Part shown: positions 3,534 through 25,144 of the stretch, piece by piece
Layout: every line of letters starts with the position of its first letter
Numbering within the stretch: the first letter of the stretch is position 1
Source: Candidatus Roseilinea sp.
Lineage (GTDB): Bacteria > Chloroflexota > Anaerolineae > J036 > Brachytrichaceae
Direction: 5' to 3'
NCBI GenBank assembly: GCA_025055235.1
Contig: JANWYN010000038.1
Coordinates: 1-32,061 of the forward strand
DNA: 32,061 nt
Program-made: the position numbers and the translations under genes
The notes under the pieces: generated by a model
What the model saw: the letters and a program-made list of their open reading frames with translations, nothing else
The model's database searches: none
What the model was told of the DNA's origin: nothing

Positions 3534-6500
3534 GTGCCCAAGAACTTAGCGTTGATCGAGGCGGCCAATCGCGCCGCCGGTCTGCTCGGCCTGCCTGCGC
3601 TGCTGCTCAAGGCGTTCATGGCCGTGGAAGGCGCGAACCCGGATGCGCGCGACGGCGTGTTGCAGGTGACGCCGGCCACGCGCGCCGGCGTGATCGGCCG
3701 CATGCCGCGCGCGCTCAAGCTCGCTGCCCTCGACCTGAGCGACGATCCGGCCATCGGCGATGCCGAGTTAAACGCGCGCTTCGCCCAGGCATTCGAGCAG
3801 AAAAGCTTGCTCGTCCAGACGCTCACCGGCGGCTGGTATGTCAAAGAGCAGCTCGACCGCTTCAACGGCTACGTCGCCCTGGCCGGCCTAGCCTACAACA
3901 CCGGCCCGGGCCGCGCGCGGCGCGAGGTGGATGAAAAGTGGGGCGGCGACCTGCTGCGCGCGGCGCTGCAATATCACAAGCGCATCGGGACGCGCAGCGA
4001 CGAAGTGACCGTCCAGCCCGGCATCCCCACGGTGGACGCTGCCACCGGCGTGCAATGGATTCGCTTCCCCGTGACGGCCAACGACACCGGCCTGGAAATC
4101 TTCCAGTACCTCTACCTGCGCCAAGTGCCGAAGCGCAACTTCGGCCTGTTGGACTTTATCTTCAGGCCGGCGCTGCTCGACCGGCTGGGCTTGTTCGACG
4201 ACGACGCGCCGCCGGGCGAAGACCGCCCCGATCGTGCGTTGATCGTGGTGAACGGCCGATTCGAATTCGCACCGCCGATCATTCAACCTTTCGCGATGTT
4301 CAACACACTCCCACTCTCGCAGCGCGATCCGCGCTGGAAGGACATCCTCCTCGGCTTCACCGACGAAGGCCGCACCATCGGCTCGGACGGTTGCACGCTC
4401 ACCTGCCTGACCATGCTGGCCAACGGCTTTGGCTTCCAGGAGACGCCGGCCACGCTGAACGACAAGCTGAAAGCGCTCGGCCCGAATCAGGGCTTCTTCG
4501 GCGTGCTGATCGCCTGGTTCGGCGTGCCGCGCGTCCTGCCGGGCTTGAAGCTGAACAAGTTGGTCGAATGCCGCCGCGTCCCCGCACCGATGGCCGAGAT
4601 TGATGCCGCGCTGGACGCCGGCAAACCGGTCGTGGTCGAGCTAGACATGTCGCCCAGCCCCGGGTTCCAAAATCACTGGGTGCTGATCTATGCGCGCCAG
4701 GGCAACGACTACCTGATCCACGATCCTTGGCCGTGGCCACCCGAGCAAAGTGCCTCGCTCACGCAGCGCTACGGCTTCGCCGGCTCGCCTGCGCAGATCA
4801 TCACGTACTGTGCCTTCTACGATAACCCGAACTTCCGCCCGCCCGACGGCCCGCCCAAGCCGGAAGAGAAAACCACGGTCATCGTCGTCAACGACGTGCC
4901 GGACATTCACGCCGTCGGCGGCCTGGCGTTGCGCGACCGCCCTAGCGCCATCGGCACACAGATCCTGCAGCGCCTGCCGGCGGGCACGATGCTCACCTTG
5001 CTCGAACCCGTGGAGTCGGCGCGGCAGAAGGTCGGCGTGTACAACCAGTGGCTGAACGTGGCTGCGCCGGATGGGACGCGTGGCTGGGTGGCCGCCTGGT
5101 ATGTGCACGCCCGCGAGGTCACGGTGACGAAATCTCTGCCTGCGCCGGCCAAGCGCGGCCAACCGCGCGAGTTGGATGTGGACACGGCCGTGCAGCCGCC
5201 GCTGCGCGCCAAGGTCTTCGTGCACACCAAGAAGACGCGCAAGCGCATCGCGATCTACGACGCGAACAAACGCACGGTGATGACCTATGTCAAAGGCGGG
5301 ATGAGGCTCGAGGCCATCGGCGAAGCCACATCACTGGAGCGCAAGCTGCGCGCACGTGCGGCGTCGCGGTCGAACTGGATCAAAGTGCTTGCCGGCGGGC
5401 GCGTCGGCTACGTCCGGGCGCGCGATTTGGAGCCGGAGCTGATCTACGCGCCGAAGCCACGCAAGCCGCCCGTCGGCAAGTCGCTCGACGAGGGTCTGAT
5501 CGCGTTGACCGAGCCGGACGCACGACCCGCGCTGCGCGTGATCGCGCCGGCCGGGCTGCGCTTGCGCGACGCGCCTAGCCTATCCGGCAACACCAAGATG
5601 GTGCTGCCGTATGGCACGCTGGTGCTGCTGCGCGAACCGCTGGACACCGCGCTGCCCAAGATCGGCCGACCCGACCAGTGGCTCGCGGTGTCCACGTTCG
5701 ACGGCGTGACCGGCTTCGTGTCGGCGGAGTGGGTCGTGCTCGCCACGACGCTGCCGCCCAGCCCGGACGTGCGCGCGCAGGGCGTCGTCCTGGCCAGCAT
5801 GACGGCGCCGCTGTATGAGCGGCCGTCGGCCAGCAGCCGGAGCGAATGGCGCGTGACGGCCGGCACGCCGCTGCGCCTGCTCAGCGACGGCGACTGGGAT
5901 CGCGTAGGCGACGAAAACGCATTCGTGCAGGTCGAGTCGTTCGCGTTCAAACGCGGCTATGTGCGTGGGTCGCACGTGCGCGCGCCGGATTTCGCCGACC
6001 GCCGCGTGAAAGTCGAAGACGCACCCCTGCCCTTCGGCATCTGCGCCTGGAACTACGGCTTGCACGACCCGTTCGACCGCGACTTGTTCGCCGGCAGCGG
6101 CAAGACCGGCTGGGTGCTGGTCACGCACCGCGTGGTGAACGGCGAGGGCTACGACTACCAAGACTGGTCGCGCAGCGGCTATGGGGTGATCGCCCGGCTG
6201 AACAACGACTACGGCGGCAGCGGCACCATCCCCACGCCGGAGCACTATGACGCCTTCGCCGACCAGTGCCGGCGCTGGGTGCTGAACTCGCGTGGCAACC
6301 TGATCTGGGTGATCGGCAACGAGATGAACAACCCGCGCGAGTGGCCGAACCAGGATCCGTGGAATCCGGGCAACAATCCGGCCGACGCCATCACGCCGGA
6401 GCGCTACGCGGCCTGCTTCAACAAGGTGCGCGCCGCGATCAAGAGTGTGCAGCCGCGGGCGATCGTCGTGCCCGGCGCGATTGATCCCTTCCGGGGGCCA

Positions 6501-9680: not shown

Positions 9681-9757
9681 TGGTAAACCGTAAATCACAA
9701 AACGTAAAACGCCAGTTGTAAATCTCCAATCTCTAATCTCCAATCATCAATCATCAA
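9681..9757. repeat. Heptanucleotide repeat array upstream of thrC, 11 units in one register
   Basis: Eleven consecutive 7-mers ending mostly in AA keep one register, for example TCTCCAA, TCTCTAA and TCATCAA, preceded by related CCGTAAA and ACGTAAA units. The array stops 5 nt before the thrC ATG. It fills over half of the intergenic region between GH4 and thrC and leaves little room for a normal thrC promoter. Confidence 0.85.
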
Positions 9758-9762
9758 CCGTC

Positions 9763-11040
9763 ATGAACCCTCACCTCATCGGACTCCGCTGCTCGCTCTG
9801 CGGCATGCTGTATTCCCCCGGCGAAGTCACCTATACCTGCCCAAAAGACAACGGCAACCTAGACGCAGTCTACGACTACACCCATCTGTCGCAGCACCTC
9901 GATTCGGCCACCATCACCCACAACCCCGATCGCTCGATCTGGCGCTATGCCCCGCTGCTGCCGATTGTTCCTCATGCGCTGCCGCATACGCCGCTTGCCT
10001 CGCTCGGCTGGTCGCCGCTCTACCGCGCGCCGGTGATCGAGCGTGAGTTGGGAATACGCGCTGTATGGATGAAGGACGACTCACGCCTGCCCAGCTCGTC
10101 GTTCAAGGACCGGGCCAGCGCGATGGTCATCGCGCGCGCCATGGAGATGGGCACCAAGACGATCTGCGTCGCTTCCACCGGCAACGCTGCAGCCGCTTTG
10201 GCCGCGCTCTGCGCCGGCACAGGCCTGCAAGCAGTGATCTTCGTGCCGGAGAGCACGCCCGAGGCCAAGTTGGCCGGCATCCTCATTCATGGCGCGCGGG
10301 TGTATACGGTGCGCGGCTCGTATAACGACGCGGTCGCGTTGGCCGAAGCAGCATGCCGCGAGTTCGGCTGGTACAACCGCAGCACCGGCATCAATCCCTA
10401 CACGCGCGAGGGCAAGAAGACTGCGGGCTTCGAGATTGCAGAGCAGCTCGCCTCGCAAGGACGAGGGAACGAGGGGGCGAGGGGACAAGGGGACGGGGAG
10501 ACAGGGTTTCGCGCGCCGGATGTCGTGATCGTGCCGGTCGGCGACGGCAACATCATCAGCGGCGTGCACAAAGGCTTTCGGGAGCTTCATGCGCTCGGCT
10601 GGATCGAGCGCGTGCCGCGCTTTGTCGGCGTCACCGCGGCGTTGTCCCCATCGTTCTATCGCGCTTGGCAATTGGGCGGCGAACAGTTCGAGACCATTCC
10701 CTCGCAGACGATCGCCAGCGGTATTGGCACCGACCGTCCATGCGACGGCGTGATGGCCTTGCGCGCCATCCGCAGCACCGGCGGCATCGTCATCGAAGCG
10801 ACCGACGAAGAGATGCTGGACGCCATGCGCGAATTGGCGATGAAAGCCGGCGTCTTCGTCGAGCCGGCTTGCGCGGCAGCATACGTCGGCCTGGTGAAAG
10901 GCCGGCGCATGGGCGTGATCGGCAGCGACGACGAAGTCGTGCTGCAACTCACCGGCAGCGGTTTCAAAGACGTGCGCTCGGCGCTGCGCGCCGCCGGCAA
11001 ACCGATCAGCGTAGAATCGCTCGCCGACATTCGGCCTTGA
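9763..11040 (+). CDS. thrC: Threonine synthase
   Basis: Threonine synthase converts O-phospho-L-homoserine to L-threonine with pyridoxal phosphate, in the cytoplasm. The product has 425 residues. The N-terminus has a CxxC pair (C10, C13) and C26, as in the zinc-ribbon-like start of one threonine synthase branch. The PLP lysine is K115 in SSSFKDRAS; STGNAAAAL holds the substrate and PVGDGNIISG binds the cofactor phosphate. The expected GVTAALSPSFYRAW and IGTDRPCDG follow. An unusual Gly/Arg/Gln insertion of about 18 residues (about 231-248) sits between EQLA and RAPDVV, where relatives have a short turn; it is encoded by a G-rich tandem repeat. ATG 9763 follows a heptad array closely and has no good Shine-Dalgarno. 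The DUF2298 gene starts 1 nt after the stop, so the pair is probably one operon. Confidence 0.92.
   Translation: MNPHLIGLRCSLCGMLYSPGEVTYTCPKDNGNLDAVYDYTHLSQHLDSATITHNPDRSIWRYAPLLPIVPHALPHTPLASLGWSPLYRAPVIERELGIRAVWMKDDSRLPSSSFKDRASAMVIARAMEMGTKTICVASTGNAAAALAALCAGTGLQAVIFVPESTPEAKLAGILIHGARVYTVRGSYNDAVALAEAACREFGWYNRSTGINPYTREGKKTAGFEIAEQLASQGRGNEGARGQGDGETGFRAPDVVIVPVGDGNIISGVHKGFRELHALGWIERVPRFVGVTAALSPSFYRAWQLGGEQFETIPSQTIASGIGTDRPCDGVMALRAIRSTGGIVIEATDEEMLDAMRELAMKAGVFVEPACAAAYVGLVKGRRMGVIGSDDEVVLQLTGSGFKDVRSALRAAGKPISVESLADIRP
10455..10506 (+). repeat. G-rich tandem repeat inside thrC with a G-quadruplex motif
   Basis: Degenerate units of about 7-8 bp (GGGGACA type) are inserted in frame and encode a Gly/Arg/Gln-rich loop. 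Four G-runs of 4-5 at 10473, 10481, 10489 and 10495, with loops of 2-4 nt, form a canonical G-quadruplex motif on the coding strand. Confidence 0.75.
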
Positions 11041-11041
11041 C

Positions 11042-13696
11042 ATGCGCGACGCCCTGCTGTGGTACCTGTGGATGCAAGCCTTCGCGTTCGGCGGCTGGCT
11101 GATCGCATCGCGGTGGCTTTGGCGCCTGCCCGATCGAGGCTACGGCGTTAGCAAAGCGTTGGGGCTGGCGCTCGGCGGCTTCTGCTACTGGGCCGCGGTC
11201 ACGCTGGGCCTTTCGATGAACCACGTTGGCGCGGCGCTGCTGGCGCTGGCCATCGTGTGGGGCATCGGCCTGTGGCTGCGCTACGATGCGCAAAACGCGA
11301 AACGCGAGACGTTCGACGCAGGACGCAAGACGCAAGACGCAGGACGTATCACGTCTTCCGTCCTCCGTCTTACATCTTCCGTCTTCCGTCTTTCGTCTTT
11401 CGTCGTCGTCACCGAGGCCCTCTTCGCGCTTGCCTTTGCCGGTTGGGCAATCGTGCGCGCTTACAGCCCCGACATCATGAGCGCCGGCGGCGAGAAATTC
11501 ATGGAATCCATGATGATCAACGCCATCCTGCGCAGCCCCGCCTTTCCGCCGAACGACGCCTGGATGTCCGGCTTCAGCATCAGCTACTACTACTTCGGCT
11601 ACATCATCTTCGCGATGCTGATCACGTTGAGCGGCGTCGCGCCGGCGGTCGGGTTCAACTTGGGCGGCGCGATGATCTTTGCGCTCACCGTGGCCGGTGG
11701 GTTCAGCATCGGATACAACCTTTGGGGTCAGGGGTCGGGGGTCAGGAGTCGGGGGTCAGGGATCAGAGGCCAGGGGGCGGAGGTTGAGGAGTCGGGAGTC
11801 GGGAGTCGGGAGTCATCCTTCCTCATTTTCAATTTTCAATTTTCAATTTTCAATTCTCAACTCCTCGCAGGACTGCTAACCGCGCTAATGCTGGCGCTGA
11901 TGGGCAACTTGGGCGGGCTGATGGGCGCGCTCAAGTGCAGCAGCGCCCTGCCACAGTCGTTCTGGGAATGGCTGGACGTGCGCGACACGGCGACGCAGGT
12001 CTATGCCTGCAACGGCCTCGCGCCGAGCGAGTTCTATGGCTGGTGGTGGGATTGGTCGCGCGTGGTGAAGGACACGACGCCGACCGGCCAATACCAGGAG
12101 ACAATCACCGAAATCCCGATCTTCAGCTTCGTGCTCGGCGACAACCATCCGCACGTGATGGCGCTGCCGCTCGCGCTGTTGGCGCTCACCCTGGCACTGC
12201 ATGTCTTTCTGGGCGGGGACGATGATGCACAAAGCATAAAACGTAAACCGCAAGACGCAAGACGTGAGACGCAGGACGCAACACGCACTGCACCTCCTGC
12301 ATCACGTATCGCATATTCCGTCGTCCTGCCGGCCATCGTCTTCGGCGGCCTGGCGTTCATGAACACGTGGGACTTCCCGATCTACGGCGCGATTTTCATC
12401 GGGGCATTACTGATCGGGCGGTGGCTGCGGCGCGAGCCGCTGCTGCCGGCGCTCTTGCACGGCGCCGGCGTGATGGTGCTGGGCTACCTGTTCTACCTGC
12501 CTTGGCACGTGACGTTCGCATCGCAGGCGCGCGGCATCGGGGTCAACCTGTTCAACGGCACGCGCTTCGTGCACTTCTTCCTGATCTACGCGCCCTTTCT
12601 GATCGCCGGCGCGGGCTTCATCGGTTTGACGGCTCGCGCGGTGCATATGCCGACGCGGGCGATCGTCGGTCGCGCTGCCGGCCTGACGGCAGCAGTCATC
12701 CTCGCCAGCCTGGTCGTGATGCTGGCGGTCGGGCTGGCTTCGCCGCAAGGGCGTGCCATGGCACAAGAACTCAGCACCACCGGCGCCGTGATGGGCATGC
12801 CGCGCGAACAGGTTTCGCAGCGTCTGCTGGAGCGCGTGACCAACCCGTGGACAGCGCTGGCGCTGGGCAGCGGCATCGCCGCCTGTGCCGTGCTCATCCT
12901 GTCTCATAGCACACCGAAAGCGGCATCACATCAGCCGGACGAGCCGGAGTCCCCTACCCCGCTCGTGCCATTCATCCTGCTGCTCTTCGGCGCCGGCGCG
13001 CTGCTCACCCTCAGCGTGGAATTCGTGTTCCTGCGTGACCTGTTCGGTACGCGTATGAACACGGTGTTCAAGTTCTACTATCAGGCGTGGACGCTGTGGT
13101 CGGTCGCGGGTGGATTCGCGATCATGAGCCTGATCACCGCGCGCAGCGTTGCAGCCAAGGCGATCGGCGGCATTGCGCTGGCCTTCGTCGCACTAGGGCT
13201 GCTCTACCCGATCATGGCCATACCCGCGCGCACAAACGACTTTCGCAGCGAGGCGACGCTGGACGGCTCGGCCTATCTGCAGCGCCTCTATCCCGACGAC
13301 GCGAAGATGATTGCCTGGCTGAATGCGAACGTCGTCGGCGATCCTTACATCATCGAAGCGCCGCCGAGCAGCGCGTTCGGCGCCTACACATACGAAGGGC
13401 GCATCTCGACGTTCACCGGCCTGCCCACGGCGCTCGGCTGGGGCGGCCATGAACATCAGTGGCGCGGCACGACCGACGAGCAAGCGCGGCGCTTCCCACT
13501 GATCGAGCAGCTCTACAACACAACTGACCTCGCCGAGGCACGCGCGCTACTGCGCGAGTTCGGCGCGAAGTATGTGATCGTCGGCGCGATCGAGCGCGGG
13601 CGATTCTCGCCGGAAGGGCTGGCCAAGTTCGAGTCGCTGTGCACGCCAGCGTTCCAATCCGGCGCGAGTGTCATCTACCGTTGTGACGGCAGATGA
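11042..13696 (+). CDS. DUF2298 (Chlor_Arch_YYY-type) multi-pass membrane protein
   Basis: The product is a very hydrophobic 884-residue protein with more than a dozen predicted membrane segments. Motifs fit the DUF2298 family: [101 protein letters not shown], and a C-terminal soluble part (from about residue 760). The family's activity is not established; a GT-C-like glycosyltransferase role has been suggested by its fold-like layout, which I treat as inference. Three in-frame heptad-repeat insertions lie in loops, at residues about 83-122, 227-276 and 398-430. The first, for example, reads [21 protein letters not shown] with 7-residue periodicity. ATG 11042 is 1 nt after the thrC stop. Removing the repeats would give a protein about 120 residues shorter. 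Confidence 0.88.
11288..11406 (+). repeat. Heptad array 1 in the DUF2298 gene, inverted halves, 17 units
   Basis: Seventeen 7-mers keep one register over 119 nt. The left half has ACGCAAG/ACGCAGG units, the right half CCGTCTT/CCGTCCT units, with the switch at ACGTATCACGT (11344-11354). GACG in the left units pairs with CGTC in the right units, so the whole array can fold into a long imperfect hairpin with in-register heptads. It is translated in frame as 7-residue repeats. Confidence 0.9.
11721..11867 (+). repeat. Heptad array 2 in the DUF2298 gene, three repeat families, 21 units
   Basis: Twenty-one 7-mers keep one register over 147 nt (49 codons). TCAGGGG-type units come first, then GTCGGGA units, then TTTTCAA units. 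The G-rich start has four runs of at least four G (11724, 11731, 11737, 11751), a G-quadruplex motif. Different families joined without loss of register suggest a shared mechanism. Confidence 0.9.
12233..12330 (+). repeat. Heptad array 3 in the DUF2298 gene, 14 units
   Basis: Fourteen 7-mers span 98 nt with a core of GACGCAA and GACGCAG units, flanked by more degenerate AACGTAA and CACGTAT units. It is related to array 1 of the same gene (GACGCAA family) and also lies in a hydrophilic loop between membrane segments. Confidence 0.8.
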
Positions 13697-13745
13697 GCCA
13701 CGACCCACCTTTGCACCTGTGCGCCTTCGTGGTTCAATCCCTGGC

Positions 13746-14714
13746 ATGGCATTCTTCGACCTTCCCCTCGATCAACTCAAGACCTATCGTCCCGACCGCA
13801 GTGAACCGCCGGACTTCGATGCCTTCTGGCAGCGCACGCTGGATGAAGCGCGCGCCCACCCACTCAACGCGCGCTTCGAGCCGGTGGACTTCGGGCTGCG
13901 CAACGTGGAGACGTTCGACGTCACCTTCAACGGCTATGGCGGCCAGCCGATCAAAGGCTGGCTGATCCTGCCCAAGCATCGCGCCGGCAAGCTACCGTGC
14001 GTCGTCGAGTTCATCGGCTATGGCGGCGGGCGCAGCTACCCCACGAGCTGGCTGCTGTGGAGTGCAGCCGGCTACGCCCATCTGGTCATGGACACACGCG
14101 GCCAGGGCAGCACCTGGAGCCACGGCGACACGCCCGACCCCGAGCCGGACGGCAGCAATCCGCACCATCCCGGCTTCATGACCCGCGGCGTGCTGCAACC
14201 GGAGACGTACTACTACCGGCGCGTGTTCACCGACGGCTGCCGTGCCGTCGAGGCTGCACAGTTGTTCGACGCAATAGACCCTGACCGCATCGCCGTGACC
14301 GGCGGCAGCCAGGGCGGCGGCATCACCATCGCCGTTGCCGCGCTCATGCCAGCCATCAAGGTAGCCATGCCCGACGTGCCGTTCCTGTGCCACTTCCGGC
14401 GCGCCGCGACGCTGATAGATAGCAGCCCTTACATTGAGCTACAACGCTTCCTCATCACCCACCGCGACAAGGTGGCACAAGTCTTCGCTACGCTGAGTTA
14501 CTTCGACGGCGTCAACTTCGCAGCGCGCGCACAGGCCAAAGCGTTGTTCTCCGTCGGGCTAATGGACGACATCTGCCCGCCCTCGACTGTGTTCGCTGCC
14601 TATAACCACTGGGCCGGCGAGAAAGACATCCGCATCTACGAGTTCAACCGGCACGAAGGCGGCGGCGAGTATCAAGCCGTGGAGAAGGTAAAGTTCCTGC
14701 GCGCAATCTGGTAA
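13746..14714 (+). CDS. CE7 acetyl xylan esterase / cephalosporin-C deacetylase family
   Basis: CE7 esterases remove acetyl groups from xylo-oligosaccharides and other small acetylated compounds, usually in the cytoplasm as hexamers. The 322-residue product has family length. The alpha/beta-hydrolase triad is visible: S188 in [10 protein letters not shown]274 in [11 protein letters not shown] and H303 in NRHEGGG, the same numbering as I recall for the Thermotoga enzyme. Other CE7 signatures are [11 protein letters not shown] (oxyanion loop), [17 protein letters not shown] and the N-terminal [13 protein letters not shown] 13746 begins the conserved domain; the frame is open upstream to 13668, overlapping the DUF2298 gene. 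A weak TTCAAT box ends 7 nt before the ATG. No signal peptide is present. It fits the hemicellulose theme of the GH51-GH43-GH2 operon, although it lies 12 kb away. Confidence 0.92.
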
Positions 14715-14799
14715 AGCCGAACAAACTAGCCGCTTGACCAGCCCACAACTCGTCGAACGAAGGACGCAGCAGCGCGCCGGCTTGGTTACAAAAGTCGGC

Positions 14800-18567
<3,768 letters not shown>

Positions 18568-18599
18568 CCGGCGGCCCTACGGTGCCGGAGCAATGCGCT

Positions 18600-19139
18600 A
18601 TGAAGCCGAAAAGCAAGGTGCTGGTCGCTTACGCGAGCAAGTATGGCTCGACCACCGAAATCGCCGAGCGAATCGGCCAGGTGCTCGCACGCGCCGGATT
18701 GGAGGTAGACGTGCTGCCTGCCGATCAGACCGGCGAGATTGGGCACTACCAAGCAGTCGTGTTGGGCAGCGCGGTCTACGCCGGCCACTGGCTCAAAGAG
18801 GCAGTCGCGTTCCTCGAATCGAACGAAGCCGCGCTGGCTCAGCGGCCGGTATGGCTGTTCTCCAGCGGGCCAACCGGCGAAGGCGATCCGGTCGAGATCC
18901 TGGACGGTTGGCGCTTCCCGCACGCCCAGCAAGCCATCGCCGACCGAATCAAGCCGCAAGACATCGCTGTGTTCCACGGCAAGGTTGATCTAAGCGCCTT
19001 GCACCTAGGGGACAAGCTCATCATCAAGGCGGTCAAGGCCAAAGTTGGCGACTACCGCGACTGGGAAGCCATCGAAGCTTGGGCCGGCAAGATCGCTCAA
19101 CAGCTCGCCAAGCCAGAGCCGAGCACCAGCCTCATGTAA
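18600..19139 (+). CDS. Flavodoxin-domain protein, HemG-like
   Basis: The product is a 179-residue long-chain flavodoxin-like protein. The FMN phosphate loop is YASKYGSTTEIAERIG (residues about 9-24), followed by VVLGSAVYAGHW and PVWLFSSGPTGEG, the pattern of the Flavodoxin_5 group that includes oxygen-independent protoporphyrinogen oxidase HemG. It may carry electrons from pyruvate:ferredoxin oxidoreductase, whose gene ends 32 nt upstream, or act in haem synthesis; the operon position favours the first but does not prove it. ATG 18600 has GGAG at 18587-18590 and fits the conserved start KVLVAYASKYG. An upstream GTG (18582) in the same frame is less likely. A GC-rich hairpin follows the gene. 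Confidence 0.85.
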   Translation: MKPKSKVLVAYASKYGSTTEIAERIGQVLARAGLEVDVLPADQTGEIGHYQAVVLGSAVYAGHWLKEAVAFLESNEAALAQRPVWLFSSGPTGEGDPVEILDGWRFPHAQQAIADRIKPQDIAVFHGKVDLSALHLGDKLIIKAVKAKVGDYRDWEAIEAWAGKIAQQLAKPEPSTSLM

Positions 19140-19188
19140 GCGACCAGCTCAAGCAGTGAGGAAGCCGTGCTCGAACTGGGGCAAAGGA

Positions 19189-19214
19189 GAAGCGCCGGCC
19201 AGAGCCGGCGCTTC
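19189..19214 (+). terminator. Terminator-like hairpin after the nifJ-flavodoxin genes
   Basis: A perfect 11-bp stem, GAAGCGCCGGC with its complement, closes a CAGA loop 50 nt after the flavodoxin stop. It is followed by CATTATC and not by a clean T-run, so termination may be weak or the hairpin may mainly protect the 3' end of the mRNA. The surrounding 209-nt gap (19140-19348) holds no gene that I can see. Confidence 0.55.
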
Positions 19215-19348
19215 ATTATCGTCGCCTGGTCACTAGGCCAGGAAGAAACCTGACCGGTGAGACGGGGTTCGGCGCGCTGCACCGGGTCAGATGCAGGTTT
19301 AACAGTACCGATCTAACTTTGTGCCAGAGTGACTAAGGAGGTGCTGGC

Positions 19349-19912
19349 ATGAACGCCTCAAACGAAATGAGTCGCATGACGAGCGGCCGGCCCGCCGCGC
19401 CGGCCGATCCACGACAGGGCGGTGTGATCGCCGCAGTGATGCTGATCGCGATCGGCGTCTTGCTTCTGATCGCGCAGGTATTCCAGCTGGGATGGCTATC
19501 GCTGCTCGTAACGCCGCTGCTCGGCGTCGCGTTCATCGTCTGGAGCATCGCGGCGCGCACGCCGGGATTGATGATCCCAGGCGGCATCTTGGCCGGCCTA
19601 GGCGCAGGCATCCTGCTCATGACGCAGCCTTTCATCAGCGAGGCTCAGAACGATCTACTTCCGGCGGCCGTGCTGATGCTCAGCTTTGCCGTTGGCTGGC
19701 TGCTGATCGTTGTGCTCACGCCGCTGGCCGGCGGACGATTGGAACTTTGGCCGCTCATCCCCGGCGCGGTCTTTGCCGTATTGGGCGCGCTGTTCTGGAT
19801 GGGTGAACCGGGCATGCGCATTCTGCAAGTCGTGGGTACGGCCTGGCCATTGATCCTGATCATCGTCGGCGCAGGCATACTCATCAGTATTCTGCGCAGG
19901 AATCACCGATAA
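19349..19912 (+). CDS. Small multi-pass membrane protein, unknown function
   Basis: The product has 187 residues. I do not recognise a named family; the layout resembles small LiaF/DUF5668-like membrane domains. A polar N-terminus (1-24, PRQGG just before the first span) leads into about six hydrophobic segments near 26-43, 48-68, 73-92, 104-124, 134-151 and 160-182, ending in a positive tail (RRNHR). The sequence is rich in Gly and Leu with no obvious catalytic residues. The start is well defined: AAGGAGGTG (19335-19343) is a near-perfect Shine-Dalgarno 5 nt before the ATG. A 16-bp perfect hairpin lies right after the stop. Confidence 0.8.
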   Translation: MNASNEMSRMTSGRPAAPADPRQGGVIAAVMLIAIGVLLLIAQVFQLGWLSLLVTPLLGVAFIVWSIAARTPGLMIPGGILAGLGAGILLMTQPFISEAQNDLLPAAVLMLSFAVGWLLIVVLTPLAGGRLELWPLIPGAVFAVLGALFWMGEPGMRILQVVGTAWPLILIIVGAGILISILRRNHR

Positions 19913-19918
19913 ACGCAG

Positions 19919-19953
19919 CGTCCGGCCTGACGCGCAGCGCGTCAGGCCGGACG
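19919..19953. terminator. Perfect 16-bp GC-rich hairpin after the small membrane protein gene
   Basis: CGTCCGGCCTGACGCG and its exact reverse complement flank a CAG loop, starting 6 nt after the stop codon at 19912. No T-run follows, so it is either a factor-assisted terminator, an mRNA 3'-end stabiliser, or a dispersed palindrome. Confidence 0.6.
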
Positions 19954-19969
19954 GAACAATGGCGAGCAC

Positions 19970-20827
19970 ATGGCGATACGGAATAACGGTCACCGCGACT
20001 TGACGCCGGCCTACTGGTTATCGGGCCTTCTTGTCGTCGTGACCTTCGTCCACTCAGCTATTGGCGCTCTCTTCCCGGGCATATTTCGCGACCCGGCCAT
20101 GACCGCCGGGAATGCCCAGGGTACAGCGATTGTGAGCCTGACAATTGCTATCCCCGTCCTCGTCATCTCAATGATACGGGCAGCCCAAGGCTCCTACAGA
20201 GCGCAGATTATCTGGCTAGGCGCGCTTGGCTACATCCTCTACAACGCAGCCATTTTTGCCTTCGCCGTCGCTTTCAATCCGCTGTTCCTGCTATACGTGG
20301 CCTCGCTCTCGCTTTCGCTCTGGGCCATCGTGGCCTTGCTCATCCACATGGATGTGGGTGAAATACGCGCCCGATTTGCCAGTAACTTGCCGGTGCGCTT
20401 TTTTGCGATTTACGTGCTGGTCGCCTCTGCGCTTTTCTTCTTCACCTGGATGCGCCAGATCATCCCAGCCATGTTCGTGCCCACGAAGCCAGCCTTTCTT
20501 CACGGAACGGACCTGCTTACCAGCCCGACCCATGTGTTGGATCTGGGATTCGCGCTTCCGTTGAGTGTTCTCGGCGCGGTGTGGCTGTGGCAACGAAAGA
20601 GCTGGGGATATCTCCTCGTTGGAATGATGCTCTCGATGCTGGCCATCGAAACATGGAGCATTACAGTTGACCAGGTGTTCGGTCATTTGAGCGACCCGGC
20701 GGCATCCCTCGACGCCGTTCCGTTATTCGCCGTGCTCACCGTGATCGGTTTGGCCGTTGCTATCGCATATCTCCGTCACCTACGCACAGCGTCGAGACAA
20801 AGAGTAGATTTATCCCTGTCTCAGTGA
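19970..20827 (+). CDS. Multi-pass membrane protein, unknown function
   Basis: I do not recognise this 285-residue protein. About eight hydrophobic segments can be seen near 15-35, 52-69, 79-101, 104-125, 142-161, 187-206, 211-231 and 250-268. Loops contain GIFRDPAMTAGN, HMDVGEIRARF and VFGHLSDPAASLD. There are no clear catalytic motifs. The gene is visibly less GC-rich than its neighbours and uses more A/T-ending codons (ttt, att, tta), which could mean more recent acquisition. The ATG at 19970 has only a weak GGCGAG upstream and lies just past a strong hairpin. The GTG of the Lon-like gene starts 84 nt downstream. Confidence 0.7.
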   Translation: MAIRNNGHRDLTPAYWLSGLLVVVTFVHSAIGALFPGIFRDPAMTAGNAQGTAIVSLTIAIPVLVISMIRAAQGSYRAQIIWLGALGYILYNAAIFAFAVAFNPLFLLYVASLSLSLWAIVALLIHMDVGEIRARFASNLPVRFFAIYVLVASALFFFTWMRQIIPAMFVPTKPAFLHGTDLLTSPTHVLDLGFALPLSVLGAVWLWQRKSWGYLLVGMMLSMLAIETWSITVDQVFGHLSDPAASLDAVPLFAVLTVIGLAVAIAYLRHLRTASRQRVDLSLSQ

Positions 20828-20911
20828 GTAAGCGAACCCAATCCCAAAGCAAGATCGTTCACCTGACTAGCTAGATGAACGCTAATCCGACGCTCGATCT
20901 AAGGGAGTAAC

Positions 20912-23320
20912 GTGGGCAGGCAACTGACGCCATCAGAGCTGCGCCGCACGATCGACCCAGTCACGCTGGGCATCCAGACCACAGCGGAGTGCATGCCGCT
21001 TGCCGGTGTGATCGGCCAGCCGCGTGCCGTGTCTGCGCTGAAGTTCGGACTGGGCATCCGCGACGCCGGCTTCAACATCTACGTTTCTGGACCGCACGGC
21101 ATCGGCAAGATGTCGGCGGTCAAGTCTTTCCTCGAAACCGAAGCACGCCGACGACCGTTGCCCTGCGATTGGTGCTACGTTAACAACTTCGACGACTCGT
21201 ACCAGCCAATCGCGATTCGTCTGCCTGCCGGACAGGCGCGCGTCTTCCAGCAGGAAATGAAATCGCTGGTCGAACATGTGCGCCGCGAACTGCCCAAAGC
21301 GCTGGAATCTGAAGAATTCGCCAACAAGCGCGACGCGCTCCTTAAAGAGCTGGAGGTCGGGCGAGCCAACATACTTGGTGAACTGAGCGCCGAGCTGGAA
21401 GCCGCGGGCTTCGGCATGCAGGTGATGCCGACAGGCATCATGACGCTGCCGGTGAGGCACGGCAGACCACTGACCGATGAAGATTTCGCCAGCATGACAG
21501 AAGAAGAACGCGCCGCATACAAAGCGCGCGGCGAGAGGGTGCAACACGAGGTGCGCGCGGCGATGAAACGCGTGCGCGACCTAGAACGAAAGGCGCAGGA
21601 ACAGTTGCAGCAGCTCAGCCGGCAAGCAGCGATGGCCGTATTGGGTGGATTGGTCGAAGATCTGATCGAGAAATACGCCGACCAGGCCGAGGTCATCGCG
21701 TATCTCGAAGCAGTGCGGGATGATATGCTCGATAATATCGAGCTGTTCAAGCCCGGCAGCCCAGCGCCCGAGGGCGTGAGCGCGCTATTTGCGCCCTGGA
21801 TGCAGGACTTGCCGTTCCGCAAATACGCTGTCAACATCCTGATAGACAACAGCAAAGCCAAGGGTGCACCGGTTGTCGTGGAATCGAGCCCGACCTACGC
21901 GAATTTGCTCGGCCGCATCGAGAAAGAAAGCCAGTTCGGCGCGCTGTATACCGACTTCACCATGATCAAAGCCGGCGCCCTGCACCATGCCAACGGCGGA
22001 TACCTGGTGCTGCGCGTCGAAGACTTGCTGCGCGAGCCATACAGTTGGGACGGGCTAAAGCGGTGTATCAACGCCGGCGAGATCCAGATCGAAGAGCTGA
22101 CCGACCGACTTGGTTTCCTCTCGACCAAAACCCTCCGGCCGCAGCCGATTCCGCTCGACGTTAAGGTCATCCTGATCGGCCACCCGCTGCACTACCAATT
22201 GTTGCACGCCTACGACGCCGACTTCGCCGAGTTGTTCAAAGTGCGGGTGGATTTCGACACGCGCATGCCGAACGAGCCGGGCAATGTGCGCGACATGCTG
22301 TCGCTGTTGCGCATGCTATGCGAGCGCGAGGGCTATCGCCATCTGGACAGCGCCGCCGCCGCTAAACTACTCGAACACGCTGCGCGCATGGCCGAGGATC
22401 AGTCCAAGCTCTCGACCCACTTCGGCACCCTGCTCGACATCGTGCGCGAAGCAAACTTGTATGCAGAGCGAGACGGCGCCGGCGTAATCGCGGCCCGCCA
22501 CATTCGACAGGCGCTCGATCAGCGGGTTTATCGCTCGAGCATGATCCAGGAACGCTTGCAAGAGATGATCCTACGCGACATGCTTTTGATCGAAACGCGC
22601 GGCGCCGCCGTCGGGCAAGTGAACGGCCTGACGATATTCACGCTCGGCGATTATGACTTCGGCCTGCCCAGCCGCATCACGGCCAGCGTCGAGCCCGGCA
22701 GCAAAGGCGTCATTGACATCGAACGCGAGGTCGAGTTAGGCGGTCCGATCCACAGTAAAGGCGTGATGATCTTGAGTGGCTACTTGTCGCACCGATACGG
22801 CCAGGACAAGCCGGTGAGCCTGTCGGCGCGGCTCGTGTTCGAGCAAAGCTACCAGCCTGTCGAAGGTGACAGCGCATCGTCTGCAGAGTTGTATGCGCTG
22901 CTCTCCGCGCTGGCCTGCCTGCCAATCAAACAATCCATCGCTGTCACCGGCTCGGTGAACCAACACGGCGAAGTTCAGGTCATCGGCGGCGTGAATGAGA
23001 AGATCGAAGGATTCTTTGATGTATGCAAGGCGCGCGGCCTGACGGGTGAGCAGGGCGTGCTCATCCCCGAAGGCAACGTGCAGCACCTGATGCTGCGCGA
23101 GGACGTGGTCGAAGCCGTCGCGCGCGGCGAGTTTCACATCTGGTCGGTGAGAAACGTGGACGAGGGCATCGAAATACTGACCGGCGAGCCGGCCAGCCAG
23201 GTGCACGCCGCAGTGGAGCAGCGGCTGAGAGCCTTCGGCCAAAGCCTGAGACAGCTCACCGCACCTCCACACCAGCTTGAGCCGAAATCATCCATCGGTT
23301 CCTCACCTGCCTCAAGCTGA
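20912..23320 (+). CDS. Lon-like AAA+ ATP-dependent protease (COG1067 type)
   Basis: The product is an 802-residue cytoplasmic protein combining an AAA+ ATPase with a C-terminal Lon (S16) peptidase, as in LonB-like/COG1067 proteases that degrade damaged or regulatory proteins. An N-terminal ATPase motif, VSGPHGIGKMSAV (58-70), is Walker A-like with Met where Thr or Ser is usual. A long charged helical region (about 120-260) follows and contains MTEEERAAYKARGERVQHE. Then comes the second part of the ATPase (GALHHANGGYLVLRVEDLLREP, resembling Walker B/LonB segments). The peptidase dyad is S654 in EGDSASSAEL and K697 in GGVNEKIEGF, 43 residues apart as in E. coli Lon. GTG 20912 is supported by AAGGGAG (20901-20907). 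A 7-bp inverted repeat spans the stop codon. It has no N-terminal LAN substrate domain, so it is not classical Lon. Confidence 0.9.
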   Translation: MGRQLTPSELRRTIDPVTLGIQTTAECMPLAGVIGQPRAVSALKFGLGIRDAGFNIYVSGPHGIGKMSAVKSFLETEARRRPLPCDWCYVNNFDDSYQPIAIRLPAGQARVFQQEMKSLVEHVRRELPKALESEEFANKRDALLKELEVGRANILGELSAELEAAGFGMQVMPTGIMTLPVRHGRPLTDEDFASMTEEERAAYKARGERVQHEVRAAMKRVRDLERKAQEQLQQLSRQAAMAVLGGLVEDLIEKYADQAEVIAYLEAVRDDMLDNIELFKPGSPAPEGVSALFAPWMQDLPFRKYAVNILIDNSKAKGAPVVVESSPTYANLLGRIEKESQFGALYTDFTMIKAGALHHANGGYLVLRVEDLLREPYSWDGLKRCINAGEIQIEELTDRLGFLSTKTLRPQPIPLDVKVILIGHPLHYQLLHAYDADFAELFKVRVDFDTRMPNEPGNVRDMLSLLRMLCEREGYRHLDSAAAAKLLEHAARMAEDQSKLSTHFGTLLDIVREANLYAERDGAGVIAARHIRQALDQRVYRSSMIQERLQEMILRDMLLIETRGAAVGQVNGLTIFTLGDYDFGLPSRITASVEPGSKGVIDIEREVELGGPIHSKGVMILSGYLSHRYGQDKPVSLSARLVFEQSYQPVEGDSASSAELYALLSALACLPIKQSIAVTGSVNQHGEVQVIGGVNEKIEGFFDVCKARGLTGEQGVLIPEGNVQHLMLREDVVEAVARGEFHIWSVRNVDEGIEILTGEPASQVHAAVEQRLRAFGQSLRQLTAPPHQLEPKSSIGSSPASS

Positions 23321-23420
23321 CGGAGGCAGCGTGTGCTTCGCTGCCGGCAACTTTGCGTTGCTGGGCAGAGTTGCGCGGTCTGCTGCGTAACGTGTAGGCA
23401 CACGAGTTCGCTCGACATCG

Positions 23421-23469
23421 GGCAATTTGCAACGAGTCACTAGCAACCGGCAATCAACGACCGGCAGCC
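23421..23469. repeat. Degenerate heptad array upstream of the first GT-C-like gene, 7 units
   Basis: Seven 7-mers such as GGCAATT, AGCAACC, GGCAATC and GGCAGCC keep one register, ending 9 nt before a TAGCAT -10 box. The rest of the 171-nt gap (23321-23491) shows no gene. Confidence 0.65.
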
Positions 23470-23478
23470 AAATGCTGG

Positions 23479-23484
23479 TAGCAT
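23479..23484 (+). promoter_or_regulatory. -10-like box TAGCAT, leaderless spacing before the first GT-C-like gene
   Basis: TAGCAT ends 7 nt before GTG 23492, the same spacing as at ruvB, the NYN gene and the SUMF1-like gene. No Shine-Dalgarno is present between the box and the start. Confidence 0.5.
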
Positions 23485-23491
23485 CGCCCTC

Positions 23492-25144
23492 GTGCTCGAT
23501 TCGAACCAAGCCCTTTCGCTTGCCGGCCATCGTTGGCTGCGCATCATAGCGATGGCACTGAGCGCGCTGGCGCTCGGCGCGCTGGCGACGCCGCAACTCA
23601 TCTACCCGTTCGGCCACGACCAGGGCATCTACTCGGCATGCGGCGACGTGATCCGGCGCGGCGGCGTGCCGATTCGCGACTGCTTCGAGAGCAAAGGGCC
23701 CGGCGTGATGGTGCTCTACGCCGTCGCGCTCTCGATCGCGTTCAGCACGGTGGCCGTGCATGCCTTCACGTTGATCTGGCAGGCAATCACGGCAGCGCTG
23801 GTGGGCTGGACGGCGCGTGCGATGTTCCATCCGGCCGCAGCGCTACCCGCCGCCGCGTTCTACTGGCTGATCTACGCCGGCATCAACTACTGGTCCATGA
23901 ACCAGGCCGAGACGTTCTCGAACTTGTTCATCGTGCTGGCGCTGTATCTGGCGTGGCGCGGTGTAGGCGATAAGGGGCAGCCGGCGCTCGACCCGCGCCT
24001 GCTGGTCATCAGCGGCGCCAGCGCGGGCATCTTGATGTGGTTCAAGTACACCTTCGGCCTGTTCATCGCCGCGATCGGCGCAGGGCTGTTGCTGCATGCT
24101 TGGCTACGCACGCGCTCGCTGCAGCAAGTGATACGCGGCGGCATCGCGTTTGCTGCCGGCACAGTTGCAATCAACGCGCTCGTGCTGATCTACTTCGCAC
24201 TGGCCGGCGGCATTCCGGCACTGGTCGAGCAGTTCAACGTCTTCCGCGAGCTGTTCCCGCTTGGCCCGCCGCGCACCCTTCCTGAGATCGTGCAATTCCT
24301 GTGGCGCTTCACCGACAACGGCGCCGACCTGACCGGCGACTACAAAGCAACCGTGCCGCAGTGGACGTTCTTCGGCGGCGGCTTCCCGCTGCTGTTCATC
24401 CTTGCCCTGCTGGGCGGCGTGCGGTTCATTCATCCGGCCAACGGCGATGGACTGGCGCGTTACGCCTACCTGGTCGGGCTGTTCATCGCCGGGCTGGCAG
24501 TCGTCGCCATCCAAGCCAAGTACGTGCAGTACCACTTCACCATCCTTCACGCGCCGCTGGCGATCATGGCCGGCGCAGGCGTCGCAGCGGCGTGGCTGTG
24601 GCTGCGCGAGCCGGGCGTCGTCCGGCGCGCGCTGGGCGCATTGAGCGGGCTGGCCGGCGTCGCAGCATTCGCGCTACTCGCCCTGCGCATGCTGCCCTGG
24701 GTATACGATGCCTACGTGAACGTGGTCGTGCAGGGCAAGTCGCTGCGCGAGATTCACTTGGAGAGCCGGGTCGCGCCGCAGCTCTATGTGGCCGATTACA
24801 TCGTCGAGCACACACGGCCGGACGAAACCATCAGCCTGTTCGCCGACGCACCGTGGGTGTATATGCTCACCCAGCGGCGCAACGCCACGCGCTTCCCGTT
24901 CGCCGACGTGTGGGCGCCGGCGCATGGCTCTTGGACGAACGCCACATTCGGCCGGCAGTTCTACGAACAAGTCGTCGCCAACCGGCCGACCTACTTCATC
25001 CTCACGAAAGACGATTACCCCTGGCTGGGCGTGCGGCATATTGACAACTGGAAGCGCCTGACCGACCTGCACGCCTACGTGGAAGCCAACTACCGCTACG
25101 AGGGAGAGAACGGGCCATTCCTGCTCTTCCGGCGCAAGGACTGA
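23492..25144 (+). CDS. GT-C-like integral membrane glycosyltransferase, paralogue 1
   Basis: The product is a 550-residue multi-pass protein with the layout of GT-C glycosyltransferases of the PMT/ArnT/GT39 superfamily, which transfer sugars from lipid-phosphate donors on the outer face of the membrane. A first hydrophobic helix (about 18-36) is followed by the first extracytoplasmic loop YPFGHDQGIYSACGDVIRR, with D43 as the candidate catalytic acid, and GGVPIRDCFESKGPG. About 10-11 further spans follow. The soluble C-terminal part (about 430-550) includes ADYIVEHTRPDETISLFAD and ends ENGPFLLFRRKD. The acceptor and donor are unknown. GTG 23492 is supported by a TAGCAT box at leaderless spacing. 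It lies 6 nt upstream of a clear paralogue. Confidence 0.8.
   Translation: MLDSNQALSLAGHRWLRIIAMALSALALGALATPQLIYPFGHDQGIYSACGDVIRRGGVPIRDCFESKGPGVMVLYAVALSIAFSTVAVHAFTLIWQAITAALVGWTARAMFHPAAALPAAAFYWLIYAGINYWSMNQAETFSNLFIVLALYLAWRGVGDKGQPALDPRLLVISGASAGILMWFKYTFGLFIAAIGAGLLLHAWLRTRSLQQVIRGGIAFAAGTVAINALVLIYFALAGGIPALVEQFNVFRELFPLGPPRTLPEIVQFLWRFTDNGADLTGDYKATVPQWTFFGGGFPLLFILALLGGVRFIHPANGDGLARYAYLVGLFIAGLAVVAIQAKYVQYHFTILHAPLAIMAGAGVAAAWLWLREPGVVRRALGALSGLAGVAAFALLALRMLPWVYDAYVNVVVQGKSLREIHLESRVAPQLYVADYIVEHTRPDETISLFADAPWVYMLTQRRNATRFPFADVWAPAHGSWTNATFGRQFYEQVVANRPTYFILTKDDYPWLGVRHIDNWKRLTDLHAYVEANYRYEGENGPFLLFRRKD

Follow-up and report, generated by a model that had tools for sequence, protein, structure and literature searches.

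The STRR sequences of filamentous cyanobacteria have a period of 7 nt and occur at many loci. Dispersed tandem heptamers with a variable number of units and tolerant unit positions are also described in Xanthomonas, where the unit is GGGAATC/GGGNATC (Rehm et al. 2015, PMC4692102). According to the sections of this paper at hand, close pairs of the Xanthomonas repeats are always convergent, one on each strand (70 pairs in Xcc and 75 in Xac), 11% and 7% of the repeats are intragenic, and few paired repeats are reported for the GGGGA(C/T)T repeats of Nostoc PCC 7120. Convergent pairing has thus been published before for one G-rich unit. In Chloroflexus aurantiacus, the available part of the description gives 22 heptamer-derived satellites that come from the single unit GATAGRA (PMC6749651), and the corresponding excerpt on Beggiatoaceae gives the single unit TAACTGA, with 169 direct sets and one indirect set, mostly just 5' of a start codon (PMC4679880). 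Other sources, likewise available in part, state that oligopurine/oligopyrimidine stretches are moderately over-represented in Chloroflexus and Roseiflexus (PMC4060949) and that short tandem repeats are not enriched on average in bacteria (PMC12699852). No origin has gained acceptance for the heptamer repeats observed so far in distantly related bacteria.

The arrays described here are a many-unit variety of a known class, the heptanucleotide repeats of Xanthomonas and Nostoc. Like the Xanthomonas repeats, as far as the available sections describe them, they occupy many dispersed period-7 loci, vary in unit number, contain tolerant positions, and form mostly convergent pairs; unlike the one G-rich unit of Xanthomonas, 26 distinct unit necklaces were found among 47 exact arrays, many of them without G-tracts. 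They share the period of 7 and the many loci with the Nostoc GGGGA(C/T)T and cyanobacterial STRR repeats; two 50-kb plasmid stretches (Anabaena and Allocoleopsis) contained 2 and 0 arrays, too few for an assessment of polarity. GATAGRA is a similar case of heptamer tandem repeats in Chloroflexota, and the available part of its account describes neither pairing nor insertion in genes. The Beggiatoaceae TAACTGA repeats are likewise numerous, intergenic, and direct, with a patchy distribution over phyla; as far as their account at hand goes, they differ in having one unit. A search of the literature on heptamer repeats and on this genus, covering titles and the beginnings of abstracts outside the subscription literature, found no extension of the convergence to many units or to this lineage.

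The window, i.e., the whole 32,061-nt stretch that was analysed, corresponds to contig C139 in a draft genome of the Candidatus Roseilinea type (3.99 Mb, 151 contigs, 91.6% complete), which is coded G000 and called the own genome below. It contains, in this order, a thrC-like PALP enzyme, a DUF2298 membrane protein, an AXE1-type esterase, and nifJ; the names thrC and nifJ are taken from the original prediction and from Pfam domains. There are no Rfam matches in the window at gathering scores. The DUF2298 search indicated Candidatus Roseilinea sp. NK_OTU-006 as the nearest named relative (79% identity, locus L029; L-numbers denote loci), and the nifJ region of this locus is identical to that of the congener G001. 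The genus set includes nine genomes (G000-G008), and G009 and G016 are outside the genus.

The original prediction was that at least eight arrays with a 7-bp period occur within 14 kb. Arrays were called by TRF and by a separate period-7 scan, which gave six regions; the prediction stands for these six, whereas the thrC array turned out to have a period of 8, and the array expected before the first GT-C gene was not detected. The intergenic array before thrC was found by TRF and the scan at 9721-9757 (AATCTCC/AATCATC; split by TRF into 9721-9745 and 9741-9757), together with a weak GTAAAAC array at 9683-9711, so that the pair at 9683-9757 is purine-rich and then pyrimidine-rich. A similar pair is present at the orthologous site of G008. 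The array inside thrC (10459-10506) has the unit GGACGAGG according to TRF and was not reported by the period-7 scan. All three arrays predicted in the DUF2298 gene are present. Array 1 (11289-11404) consists of a GACGCAA arm (TRF 11289-11346) and a CGTCTTC arm (11352-11404), which form a convergent pair and a long hairpin. Array 2 (11724-11860) contains GGGGTCA, GGGAGTC, and then TTTTCAA units (TRF 11724-11776, 11788-11814, and 11825-11860) and is convergent, with non-complementary arms. Array 3 (12227-12287) is built of GACGCAA units (TRF 12249-12287).

As for the two arrays attributed to nifJ, the one at 15879-15986 is a convergent hairpin of a GGGGACA/GGGGTCA arm (TRF 15879-15934) and a GATCCCT arm (15941-15969), and it is an in-frame insertion. 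The other, at 17786-17810 (17786-17807 in the scan), is a weak CCAATCT array with 3.6 copies in TRF and is not an insertion specific to the window: six of ten distinct alignable relatives are equal in length at this site, two are longer by 12 and 21 nt, and G001, G006, and G008 all have CTCCAATCTCAAATC. In the region before the GT-C gene (23300-23600), neither TRF nor the scan finds a period-7 array; the one TRF entry has a period of 8 (23562-23587). On visual inspection, positions 23434-23475 resemble, in reverse complement, a degenerate GTTGCTG/GTCGCTA array located at 8776 in L113, and this stretch is perhaps an eroded array.

The statement that arrays inside genes keep the frame was borne out by in-frame insertion in nifJ array 1, thrC, and the DUF2298 gene. 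In aligned DNA, nifJ array 1 is without counterpart in all ten distinct alignable genomes (12 tried) and adds 87 nt relative to the nearest relatives and 81-105 nt over all. The thrC array is missing from all five alignable loci (seven tried), and it adds 12-27 nt: 24 nt compared with L029, L030, and L032, 12 nt compared with L031, and 27 nt compared with L034. Relative to L029, the three DUF2298 arrays add 63, 42, and 12 nt, respectively. DUF2298 array 1 is also found in G006 and G008 and is absent from G001, G002, and G005, and at the site of array 2, L031 has AATTGAG and CTCAATT arms instead. The expectation that insertion lengths are multiples of 21 nt holds, in the comparison with L029, for DUF2298 arrays 1 and 2, but not for array 3, thrC, or nifJ. 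These in-frame insertions illustrate the gain of sequence in loops of conserved proteins (NifJ, DUF2298, and ThrC).

Outside the window, an array-blind sample was taken that comprises at most 20 kb from the start of each of 40 contigs (529,753 bp of 3.99 Mb). Twelve ORFs of this sample have interior arrays, and nine of the ten scanned carry a Pfam domain, which agrees with the in-frame presence in conserved genes noted for the window. MutS, a PheT-type synthetase, PrmC, an aconitase-family protein, and an aromatic amino acid lyase are among these ORFs; several of their arrays are just 20-30 nt long, and MutS alone was compared with relatives. The MutS array aligns without a gap in seven of eight congeners and hence is not a recent insertion; a length-variable stretch follows directly after it.

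The tandem repeat search over this sample of the genome confirmed the predicted excess at 7 bp. The array-blind sample contains 52 arrays with a period of 7, compared with 0-2 at each period from 2 to 6, four at 8, six at 9, one each at 10-12, and none at 13; harmonics of 7 are seen at 14, 21, and 28. An order-3 Markov control sequence gave no array at period 7 and one at period 6. With looser settings, 70 period-7 regions were found in the 40 sampled contigs and the window. With the window included, 42 of 88 arrays are intergenic, 37 are in ORFs, and nine are at edges; this assignment was made by a crude caller that over-calls coding (91% of bases), and the share in ORFs should be compared with the intragenic fractions given for Xanthomonas, in the sections at hand, with this in mind. 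The bases left uncalled by the same crude caller are enriched in these arrays.

That one period is shared by many different units was also supported. In the tally of 13 unit families, the three with the most arrays (GGAGATT, GACGCAA, and GAATTGA) are without a GGG tract, which is present in other families (GGGGTCA and GGAGTCG). The commonest units thus do not belong to the G-rich sub-class (GGGNATC, GGGGAYT), whose G-tract units can form G-quadruplexes. A common unit skeleton of the type purine-purine-pyrimidine-pyrimidine was not established: the EM log-likelihood was -229.2, compared with -240.6 to -227.8 in 12 permuted sets, one of which was better.

Arrays next to each other are for the most part convergent, and most units have one particular strand directed towards the centre of the pair. 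An array was designated F if the plus strand has a purine majority, and a pair was defined as oppositely oriented neighbours within 60 bp (FR, convergent; RF, reverse). The first method, which could fuse two arms into one array, gave 37 FR and 7 RF pairs in 1.13 Mb of the own genome and 20:0 in 0.92 Mb of relatives, i.e., 57:7 in total. The second segmentation was similar in outcome, with 62 FR and 9 RF pairs over 246 regions, compared with 7153:7104 in random 100-mers. The larger FR counts include stretches picked via hits to the window arrays, which are themselves convergent (own stretches 26:5 and relatives 13:0 in the second segmentation). The other sets of this segmentation are the window (3:0), the own array-blind sample, from which the window is excluded (11:4, p 0.12), and the syntenic stretches of G001, G006, and G008 (9:0). 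The array-blind and syntenic sets together, without the window or hit-chosen stretches, yield a ratio of 20:4 (p 0.0015). The nine pairs from syntenic stretches represent six distinct sites, two of which are orthologous to window arrays; if sites are counted once, the ratio is 17:4 (p ~0.007, calculated by hand).

When single units are considered, the strand towards the centre is mostly fixed, with ratios of 18:0 for AATTGAG, 16:0 for AGATTGG, 13:0 for AAAATTG, 7:0 for AATTGGT, and 6:1 for GACGCAA, and ACTCCCC is mixed (1:2); in these per-unit counts each pair contributes two arms, so that matched pairs are counted twice. The ATTG motif is directed outward in 60 cases and inward in one. The polarity based on purine majority fails for GATGAAA-type units, the pairs of which mostly show the opposite purine order (L112 17212-17324, L012 7971-8046, and L023 13378-13433), and the rule therefore tracks the unit and not the purine content. 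Gene direction cannot produce convergence, since the arrangement is symmetric under strand exchange.

The pairs keep this order inside ORFs of at least 200 aa (27 FR and 1 RF with a simple longest-first ORF caller), and regulation in the vicinity of start or stop codons alone is therefore no explanation. They also keep it if the arms share less than 10 nt, as in 20 of the 44 own pairs: the ratio is 25:2 for such pairs (own 18:2, relatives 7:0) and 32:5 for pairs with matching arms (own 19:5, relatives 13:0). Self-copying alone thus does not explain the polarity.

Comparison of congeners characterized the changes of arrays over time. Among gaps of at least 7 nt, multiples of 7 account for 50 of 86 inside arrays and 49 of 216 outside (Fisher p ~1e-8); for gaps longer than 7 nt, the respective counts are 35 of 71 and 14 of 181. 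The tallies are from seven genome pairs with common members, so that the gaps are not fully independent, and the tally outside arrays extends up to 60 nt. One orthologous site has about 19 AGARTCY units in G008, five AGAGTCC units in G001, and about six AGAATTG units in G006. In 169 GACGCAA units, position 7 is changed in 51 and position 2 in none, units with more than one change from the consensus being uncounted. The unit number differs between close relatives, as in the Xanthomonas and Nostoc repeats. Slippage is well supported by these alignments as the probable way in which complete 7-nt units are added to or removed from existing arrays. The arrays stay at orthologous sites, and other species can have them in eroded form or with another unit. 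The suggestion of a shared process with a fixed 7-nt step therefore survives as unit slippage of existing arrays and not as a general step: multiples of 7 are enriched inside existing arrays only, so that a simple fixed-step process is not supported, and a genome-wide 7-nt indel step was rejected.

The arrays are rich and many-unit in the own genome and in some sister genomes. The first-look array candidates, which rest on one query and are a rough proxy for array number, amount to 208 in G000, 151 in G006, 88 in G004, 28 in G001, 23 in G008, 19 in G002, ten each in G003 and G005, and two in G007; outside the genus, there are 48 in G009 and two in G016. Larger genomes tend to have a higher rough count (Spearman coefficient of 0.80 for nine genomes of the genus and 0.60 for 19 of the family). 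A fragmentary assembly is not the cause, since the array-rich G006 is a single contig of 4.67 Mb (97% complete), and orthologous arrays recur across separate assemblies. Loss of MutS was discarded as a cause, as MutS1 is present in all 31 genomes. SbcD has a match in 28 of 31 genomes; it has none in the G000 draft but is found in the array-rich G006 and G004, and its loss was discarded as well. SbcD was matched in all eight congeners searched, and the G000 gene may be in the 8% that the draft lacks. No Ku matches were found in the 31 genomes, and any rejoining would therefore be Ku-independent.

Our preferred reading, to which we give about an even chance, is that the arrays are heptanucleotide tandem repeats of the Xanthomonas/Nostoc class, many-unit in kind, which have grown by slippage and convergently. 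Unit slippage would lengthen an array on one specific strand, the one facing the centre, at its 3' end. Convergent pairs would form if, at a stalled fork or break, the 3' ends on either side were extended in this manner and afterwards rejoined; alternatively, the nascent strand could fold back and copy itself. Inside genes, the survivors would be frame-keeping events in variable loops, which does not imply that the arrays have a function there. Fold-back (quasi-palindrome) template switching alone, in which the nascent strand slips, folds back, and copies itself into a convergent hairpin, seems to us rather unlikely as the whole explanation, though much in the arms recalls it. The mean run common to both arms is 10.7 nt, compared with 5.4 nt in permuted pairs; in five pairs, the arms are identical over 14-28 nt and separated by 0-4 nt; and nifJ array 1 and DUF2298 array 1 form long hairpins that fold as ssDNA far better than shuffles (z -3.22 and -3.07). 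DUF2298 array 2 (z +0.65), the pair before thrC (+0.24), and DUF2298 array 3 (-0.81) show no long hairpin in the same ssDNA folding. Given arms alike beyond chance and the hairpins, fold-back copying may contribute, yet unlike convergent pairs need more: the polarity is equally strong in pairs of both kinds, and self-copying cannot give unlike arms unless one is later replaced, which is possible, as units change at fixed sites. Growth of the two arms towards each other from their 3' ends would best fit the polarity in such unlike pairs. Selection of RNA or DNA hairpins for regulation (terminators, G-quadruplexes, or protein sites) is improbable in our estimate. The available sections on Xanthomonas report that GGGAATC and GGGGAYT units lie near gene ends and form G4 structures (Rehm et al., PMC4692102), and in relatives, the purine strand of lone intergenic arrays is directed outward from the nearest gene end in 17 cases and inward in five (p 0.017). 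In the own genome, however, neither direction clearly prevails among these arrays (33 outward and 26 inward, not significant), and the tract-free commonest units, the polarity retained inside long ORFs, and the many own pairs with unlike arms speak against such a role.

Spread of composite arrays between loci by transposition or gene conversion is decidedly improbable. Several loci have the order AATTGAG, ACTCCCG, CTGACCC; by eye, the window and L236 have a spacer stretch of about 25 nt in common; and unit order is common to 545 pairs, compared with 274 (sd 26) in a unit-shuffle null. This excess is nearly gone against a unit-reversal null that keeps the block structure (767 versus 633-712), and block copying between loci was therefore rejected as evidence; moreover, the copies in L236 and G006 occupy a single orthologous site and do not represent two insertions. 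No target duplication of the kind expected for a MITE is evident at nifJ array 1, where the nearest relatives differ by ~11%, and Y1 transposases (REP/REPIN with RAYT) do not track the arrays: G009 has arrays without a Y1_Tnp match, and G011 and G016 have Y1 without an array match. Addition of heptamers to DNA ends by a telomerase- or DRT10-like RNA-templated reverse transcriptase would account for repeats whose purine-rich strand runs towards the centre, which recalls telomere strands, and DRT10 is reported, in the part of the source at hand, to make tandem-repeat DNA (PMC12632851). A single RNA template would give one unit, whereas many occur here. Some array-bearing genomes have no reverse transcriptase match: RVT_1 (PF00078) has no matches in G006 or in the array-bearing G009, and within the genus its matches are confined to G000 (two) and G004 (one). 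The lack of a match in G006 makes this mechanism unlikely, and we consider it hardly credible. Both reverse transcriptases of G000 look like members of other systems. The one in L179 (G000 C93 ~3965-4588) is a 319-aa ORF that directly adjoins a Cas1-like ORF and is presumably, judging by motifs and context, a possible CRISPR-associated enzyme; the one in L180 (G000 C142 ~18188-18778) is located near FGE-sulfatase-like ORFs with Asn-rich variable ends and, as we take it from the same kind of features, resembles that of diversity-generating retroelements.

With regard to the preferred convergent growth by slippage, it should be noted that slippage from local seeds does not account for the favouring of a few units. 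A sequence-reading process, free of reverse transcriptase and Ku, might add heptamers to the 3' ends flanking a lesion, one strand per unit, after which the ends would be sealed; we regard this as a long shot. If it were true, convergent pairs, including those in genes, would be repair scars, and the process would also operate in Xanthomonas and gain or lose activity from one sister species to another. A polarity rule for many units, in and outside genes and with complementary arms or not, would strongly constrain the mechanism and speaks against pure regulation and simple self-copying. This rule can be tested in the published Xanthomonas genomes and in whole genomes of this genus.

Tandem repeats with other periods are also present in the window. 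About seven copies of the 15-bp unit GCTCAGCTTCGGCAG, with a 93% match, are located at 113-221 inside a long ORF. A period-9 array, GGTGTCGGT, with 6.8 copies is located at 28711-28772, and period 9 is the second commonest among periods up to 13 in the array-blind sample.
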